Shown one piece after another: positions 17,647-17,945 of a DNA stretch of 34,816 nt. The position numbers and the translations under genes were made by a program. This DNA comes from Helicobacteraceae bacterium (GTDB lineage Bacteria; Campylobacterota; Campylobacteria; Campylobacterales; Sulfurimonadaceae). Under the pieces are notes generated by a model. That model made no database searches. It had not been told where the DNA came from and saw only the letters and a list, made by a program, of their open reading frames with translations. The DNA lies in the NCBI GenBank assembly GCA_027052175.1, contig JALUFE010000079.1, positions 1 through 34,816 on the forward strand. The letters are read 5' to 3'. Each line of letters starts with the position of its first letter. Position 1 is the first letter of the stretch.

Positions 17647-17665
17647 GAGTCCACTTTGTGGACTC
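17647..17665 (+). terminator. Rho-independent-type hairpin after yeiH
   Basis: A perfect stem GAGTCCAC-TTT-GTGGACTC lies 11 bases after the yeiH stop, followed by a pyrimidine-rich TCCTCTCTTT. It abuts the repeat element that starts at 17678. Confidence 0.7.
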
Positions 17666-17677
17666 TCCTCTCTTTGC

Positions 17678-17945
17678 AGGGCACCTCTAAAAACCCTAAG
17701 TTGCCTCAGCATTATAGCAAAAGTGCTTATTTGAGGCGGAACTTTGCAGTCGCTACCGGTAGCTTCAAAAAGTTCCAACGAAGAAGAAGCGTTTTTGCTA
17801 TAATGCCCTACGGGAGTCTAAAATAGGAGCAATCTTGCGTAAAAATTTTTCTCACCGTCGCTTTGGCTACGCCTTAAAAAATATTTTTCACAATCTCACT
17901 CCTCTTTTAAGCTCTGAGACAATTTAGGGTTTTTAGAGGTGCCCT
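17678..17945. repeat. 268-bp nested inverted-repeat element (MITE-like or structured RNA)
   Basis: The ends form a terminal inverted repeat: 22 bases are perfectly complementary (17678-17699 with 17924-17945, starting AGGGCACCTC), and the match extends inward to 32 bases with two mismatches (17709 and 17914). Inside are two arms. Arm A (17709-17806) has a perfect 14-base stem (GCATTATAGCAAAA with TTTTGCTATAATGC), an 8-base stem (GGAACTTT at 17738, AAAGTTCC at 17769) and a 12-base central palindrome GCTACCGGTAGC at 17752. Arm B is an imperfect stem (AAAATAGGAG near 17820 with CTCCTCTTTT near 17899). No target-site duplication is visible (flanks TTTGC and TTACT). It could be a miniature mobile element or a structured transcript. 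It fills most of the 368-base gap between yeiH and the next gene. Confidence 0.75.
17799..17927 (+). other. Possible mini-gene inside the repeat element: promoter, ribosome site, 30-codon frame
   Basis: An extended -10 (TGC-TATAAT, 17799-17804) in the right stem of arm A is followed by AGGAG (17825-17829), a TTG start at 17835 and 30 sense codons ending with TAG at 17925, inside the right terminal repeat. The peptide would be basic (RKNFSHRRFGYALKNIF at its start) with a short apolar tail. Another frame through the right repeat reads NLGFLEVPF. The coding potential may be accidental, since repeat elements often give spurious short frames. Confidence 0.2.

Follow-up and report, generated by a model that had tools for sequence, protein, structure and literature searches.

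MITEs are usually seen as deletion derivatives of which the ends alone matter. In the window (the whole stretch of 34,816 nucleotides analysed here), a short intergenic sequence in which arms are nested inside terminal repeats raises the question of whether such an element is only a mobile repeat or also a structured nucleic acid under selection. Our best explanation, to which we assign a probability of about 0.7, is that it is an IS5-mobilised MITE with a conserved folded core belonging to a larger superfamily, so that here the interior is the conserved part.

The element and its mobility

The preliminary description had reported a 32-base terminal inverted repeat with 22 perfect bases, and we recover it as such (17678-17709 and 17914-17945, 32 nt, 94% complementary overall, the first 22 nt perfect). 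The element bounds, first drawn at 17678-17945, were nearly right, and need trimming by one base at each side: target duplications in relatives set the ends at GGGC...GCCC, and the outermost A and T are thus target sequence. The best bounds for the whole MITE, which carries no strand assignment, are therefore 17679-17944 (266 bp), with ends GGGCACCTCTAAAAACCC...GGGTTTTTAGAGGTGCCC. Exact 4-bp target duplications flank these ends in 29 of 70 relatives (e.g., ATAA, TGTA, ATAT, TTCA, and TGAA); the window copy's own duplication is degraded (flanks TGCA / TTTA). The longest ORF lying wholly within the 266 bp encodes 30 aa, so that the element is short and lacks coding capacity.

Within these bounds, the left terminal inverted repeat (17679-17709, + strand), the inner CTCAG of which closes the junction, pairs with the right one (17914-17944, − strand; CTGAG...GGTGCCC). 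Both nested arms that had been described are present, the long hairpin being arm A and the second, imperfect hairpin being arm B. Arm A is a long bulged hairpin (17710-17805, + strand; helices 2-5 of the 47-copy alignment described below) built on an 87% inverted repeat (17709-17731/17784-17806), with an 8-bp stem GGAACTTT/AAAGTTCC and the palindrome GCTACCGGTAGC. It contains the conserved arm module (17723-17793, + strand; match to model R1, 77.9 bits, E = 1.4e-21), which reads in order GAGGC, the 8-bp stem, GCAG, the GCTACCGGTAGC hairpin, TTCAA, the returning stem and AACGAAG. Arm B is a second bulged hairpin (17815-17913, − strand; helices 7-9), inverted relative to arm A. The three-way junction first proposed gives way to a four-way one, because a CCCTACGGG mini-hairpin (CCC-TAC-GGG, 17806-17814, unstranded), whose CCC and GGG are nearly invariant, separates the arms; the junction thus consists of the terminal stem, arm A, the invariant CCCNNNGGG mini-hairpin and inverted arm B. 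The predicted RNA fold of the element reaches −110.8 kcal/mol on the + strand (z = −11.1) and −118.2 kcal/mol on the − strand (z = −11.4), and none of 200 shuffles was as stable.

The gene before the element encodes a PF03601 (Cons_hypoth698) protein and is followed by a terminator-like hairpin outside the element (17647-17665, + strand), whereas the gene after it has no Pfam match. The location between a terminator and a promoter, as originally proposed, therefore stands on its terminator side; the promoter side consists of a TATAAT-like string downstream of the element, picked out by eye and not reported by a promoter scan. Lying between a terminator and the next gene, the window copy may be untranscribed. 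No ORF contains any of the 139 elements that could be classified; 72 occupy tandem, 46 divergent and 21 convergent intergenic regions, proportions that are near expectation except for a modest excess of divergent sites. An apparent avoidance of convergent regions (1 of 58) disappeared at 139 elements (21 against 23 expected). The site of the window copy and the 21 convergent elements imply that not all sites require a role as RNA.

Copies are numerous. The own genome (G000; 131 contigs, 86% complete) holds five full-length copies with 85-100% identity (those on contigs C81, C25, C41 and C105 among them) and about ten rearranged or partial ones, including one-arm copies, copies with nested elements and palindromes made of the terminal inverted repeats (TIRs) only. 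A sister species of the same genus (G003) retains both flanking genes, with 66 bp between the matched flanks as against 318 bp in the window; this is evidently the vacant homologous site without the element. Allowing at most one mismatch, we found the terminal repeat in 77 of the 200 family genomes scanned, covering 14 of 18 genera, compared with none for a reversed control pattern. Multiple copies in the own genome and in relatives, target duplications and a vacant site bear out the earlier reading as a MITE, and we regard the element as a non-autonomous transposon by all sequence criteria.

The preliminary description had suggested looking for a transposase element with the same AGGGCACCTC ends, and one was found in G048, where a 1252-bp element (L105:1016-2267) carries these ends around a 342-aa transposase assigned to the IS5 family (NCBIfam NF033581, E = 4.8e-82; Pfam DDE_Tnp_1). 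Identical ends also flank IS5-family transposases in Sulfurimonas and Sulfurospirillum MAGs, and perfect target duplications accompany the IS5-family relatives at L191 (TTAA) and L202 (TTAT). Given the identity of the ends, the mobiliser is very probably an IS5-family transposase. No autonomous IS5-family element with these ends was found in the incomplete own genome, and plasmid and phage collections gave no match. A pair of distant family-type (F1-like) ends at L063 was considered as a further IS and rejected, since it encloses an unrelated host gene.

Several copies record later events. One copy (L010:1501-1901; G000:C25:10858-11258) harbours another kind of MITE: the nested element has CCCGGATTTTGCATTAG ends, is apparently flanked by a 5-bp duplication (TTAAT) and contains a GCAG...GGTAGTCCAA hairpin resembling the module cap. 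Another (L008:1501-2038; G000:C104:27306-27844) is interrupted in arm B by a TAAGTAATGAGGC-type member with a TA duplication, hence superfamily members insert into each other. TIR-only palindromes, about 30-65 bp long and bordered by direct repeats (L111:1118-1156, L116:749-798, and L024 near 1501), are apparently end-stage deletion derivatives.

Conservation and spread of the folded core

Covariance analysis of the copies, also proposed in the preliminary description, revealed extensive compensatory change. We aligned 47 diverged full-length copies with MAFFT, blind to structure, and RNAalifold gave a consensus of 96 pairs; 94.4% of the cells were paired and 87 of the 96 pairs had changed on both sides, with a covariation score of 0.623, compared with 0.195 after shuffling and no more than 0.135 with slid partners. 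The covarying fold takes in the junction and both arms as well as the inner part of the terminal stem; double-sided changes affect 27 of 30 pairs in the terminal-stem helix and 28 of 29 in arm B (helices 7-9). In the central hairpin, the 3-nt loop varies and CCC and GGG hardly do, and a hairpin of the CCCTACGGG type likewise occupies the centre of elements whose terminal repeats differ. Two strands of the apical module, [AG]AGGC and AACGCAG, are conserved and unpaired; the module's second loop is G[AC]AG/TTCAA or CGA. In 29 modules, whose stems were pre-filtered for pairing, 20 of 20 pairs had changed on both sides (covariation 0.750 vs 0.279), and 108 distinct modules scored 0.763 vs 0.241 in an alignment that was model-fitted and hence leans toward structure. 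The reading as a structured element thus holds as well; clearly, what we find is the opposite of a single copy lacking relatives and compensatory change.

The RNA covariance model of one arm (R1), built from the 29 modules, extended the core well beyond the window. It matched 71 sites in G000 (i.e., more than 70 in a single genome), 20 in G002 and 8 in G026 and, in a sample of Campylobacterota, about a fifth of the genomes (55 of 298), spread over 22 of 58 genera in at least nine families; matches in genera outside the training set reached E values near 1e-20. The fold is, by these comparisons, one kept by evolution across a whole bacterial phylum. Outside the phylum, matches occurred in 6 of 396 genomes of the Bacteroidota group, as well as in one Chlorobiota and one Bacteroidota genome. 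A few Bacteroidota/Chlorobiota have single-arm versions 161-169 bp long. One genome of the Bacteroidota group (G654) had 11 matches, ten of which were delineated as near-identical single-arm elements of 161-169 bp (L416, L420, L423, L425, L426 and L428-L432), with ends ATACGAATTACATTTTATAA or TACCAATTACG, TAA/TTA duplications and the same arm module. At the gathering score, Rfam 15 matched neither the window element nor the relatives scanned, its matches in the latter being host rRNA and tRNA genes only, and we found no report of such elements in Campylobacterota in the open-access literature.

We delineated 170 elements, most of them 262-276 bp long with CCCNNNGGG near the middle; the arm order in relatives was always + then −. 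By their ends, the elements can be sorted into about nine kinds, whose target duplications measure 2, 3 or 4 bp; G000 alone has at least seven of these kinds. The kind GGGCACCTC has a 4-bp duplication, TACCAxxx a 3-bp one (TAA or TTA in every readable copy), GACTTCTTGCAAAA a 3-bp one (mostly AAT/ATT), CTGACCTTACGCACC perhaps a 7-bp one, which is uncertain, and both AGTAATGAGG and TTACCGCACC a TA duplication; other types include GACTTCTTGC.. and CTGACCTTACGC.. ends. At L134 (G002:C19), the right end, where TACCA-type ends read ...TTTGGTAT, is joined to an AAT target to give TGGTATAAT, an outward extended −10-like promoter string, and insertion might thereby create promoters.

We did not find transposases for the other end types. 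Within the IS5 family, groups producing each of the duplication sizes of 2-4 bp are known, so one transposase superfamily may serve all end types; since the terminal repeats differ between sub-families, the individual transposases probably differ too. Module identity was 0.87 within one end type of the same genome, and between end types it was nearly equal within a genome (0.57) and across genomes (0.55), which indicates that cores and ends mostly descend together and that swapping is infrequent. Exchange of cores between terminal-repeat types thus seems rare.

Wobble pairs bear on which form of the core is selected. In stem 2 of the non-redundant modules, read in the module sense, G.T outnumbered A.C by 35 to 4. 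In the 47-copy alignment, whose cells are not independent, the G.T:A.C ratio was balanced in the terminal stem (44:33), strongly skewed in arm A (122:18, with the conserved U.G pairs 47-120, 48-119 and 49-118 supplying about half of the excess) and reversed in the middle part of the inverted arm B (13:30). A purely double-stranded DNA signal should lack such a skew, which suggests that a folded single strand, RNA or single-stranded DNA alike, is the selected form. The loops resemble UNCG tetraloops on the antisense strand, not on the sense strand.

Members of the superfamily also occur at rRNA genes, as known in two genomes only. Each of the three 16S genes of G247 has a 272-nt member inserted in its helix 10 region (L184:138-1943 on the − strand, L323 and L324). 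The insert is flush with an otherwise complete 16S model match and is therefore transcribed in the precursor; we regard it as a 16S intervening sequence that is a relative of the MITE. In G356, stand-alone module hairpins lie between 16S and tRNA-Ala and, inverted, between 23S and 5S (L385:944-1035 and L386:587-678, flanking 23S), a pair that could join as a processing stalk. The window copy, being intergenic, is not itself an rRNA intervening sequence, a status that applies to the G247 copies only.

Competing explanations and a proposed mechanism

An ordinary IS5-derived MITE, in which only the ends matter and the hairpins are inert filler kept self-complementary by template switching or similar processes, would account for mobility, for which terminal repeats, target duplications and an IS5 partner suffice, and the existence of TIR-only and one-arm forms means that the core is not required for insertion. 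We nevertheless consider this reading unlikely, because the loops (AAGGC/AACGCAG, and G[AC]AG/TTCAA or CGA), CCCNNNGGG and the arm lengths are conserved across genera, families and end types, and the wobble bias differs between the arms and the terminal stem. Template switching can also keep inverted repeats alike; however, correction of a neutral palindrome should erase conserved mismatches, and the mismatched loops argue against it as the sole cause. The fold could instead be selected as single-stranded DNA, exposed on the lagging strand or during uptake by transformation; a protein of the host, or one associated with the transposase, would bind it and promote transposition or shield the hairpins. 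The strand-sense wobble bias, which fits any folded single strand, the unselective position relative to transcription and the strand-neutral dyad symmetry all agree with this. The rRNA-gene copies, which indicate tolerance or a role at the RNA level, and the action of IS5-family DDE transposases on double-stranded ends both count against this alternative, which we find doubtful rather than implausible.

The module might also be a host RNA with a regulatory or processing function, for example in rRNA processing or as a 5' leader, that was copied by MITEs and is no part of the transposon. Stand-alone single-arm hairpins with their own covariation, found at a few sites per genome in families f3 and f7 and in both rRNA spacers of G356, agree with such an origin, but for most families the module is confined to elements with terminal repeats, which are scattered over many unrelated intergenic positions, and this makes the reading improbable. 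The two inverted bulged hairpins are, furthermore, reminiscent of a BIME, and stand-alone hairpins without terminal repeats exist in f3 and f7 genomes, as would be expected of REP-like hairpins moved by a RAYT, i.e., a Y1 (HUH) transposase. The terminal repeats and target duplications are DDE-like, however, and Y1_Tnp (PF01797) was absent from eight module-rich genomes (G000, which is 86% complete, G002, G046, G012, G247, G356, G427 and G357), so that we reject this possibility as extremely improbable.

We thus return to an IS5-mobilised MITE whose core, two inverted bulged arms around CCCNNNGGG with near-constant size and compensatory change, is evidently shared by the whole superfamily. An IS5-family DDE transposase encoded elsewhere would recognise the GGGCACCTCTAAAAACCC ends and leave a 4-bp duplication. 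Selection would act on the core in its folded single-stranded form, either RNA or DNA, with the internal loop AAGGC/AACGCAG as a putative recognition site for a host factor; since the arms are mutual inverts, one of them would always have the correct orientation, regardless of which strand is transcribed or exposed. A transcript would then fold into a self-contained, end-paired unit that RNase III-type enzymes, perhaps guided by the module, could cut out or trim, making insertions nearly harmless even in rRNA, as in the 16S genes of G247, and allowing the element to spread. Transcript folding followed by such excision or trimming is the mechanism that we favour, tentatively and at less than even odds.

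More speculatively, and with a similarly modest expectation of being right, we propose that the arm module is a functional structured nucleic acid of a new class, a folded domain of RNA or single-stranded DNA for which hosts have a conserved recognition factor, that an ancient MITE superfamily with diverse ends carries it for tolerable or mobile insertions, and that it seeded the stem-closed rRNA intervening sequences and rRNA-spacer hairpins of Campylobacterota. If functional, the fold would point to an unrecognised host interaction, offer a testable origin for some rRNA intervening sequences of Campylobacter and Helicobacter, and supply a model with which repeats now overlooked can be annotated.

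Comparison with known systems

NEMIS/Correia, ERIC and RUP elements are small palindromic mobile repeats with folding transcripts, and NEMIS transcripts are cut by RNase III. Set beside these by description, the present element is alike in being small, palindromic and folding. To our knowledge, each of them is a single family with one kind of end, confined to one genus or family and without a shared two-arm core.

REP/BIME sequences with RAYT (for REPs, PMC3733652) likewise form inverted pairs of bulged hairpins in many intergenic copies. In contrast, the present elements are larger and have terminal repeats and target duplications of the DDE type, in module-rich genomes that lack Y1.

Stem-closed rRNA intervening sequences are known in Campylobacter and Helicobacter (PMC3335488, PMC2801512); those of H. 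fennelliae measure 355 bp in 16S and 271 bp in 23S, and their paired ends are proposed RNase III sites (PMC3335488). The present elements, with the 272-nt G247 insert as the counterpart, resemble them by description as stem-closed inserts with paired ends, and differ in that most lie outside rRNA.

The IS5-type MITEs (PMC10969869) share with the present elements a short, gene-free, AT-rich and intergenic character, terminal repeats, target duplications and ends common to IS, and a strong predicted transcript fold has been reported for MITEs such as QMITE2 (PMC10969869). They differ from the present superfamily in its conserved, covarying four-way interior across many end types and throughout a phylum. 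The kind of element is therefore known; we did not find a phylum-wide structured core across many end types described.
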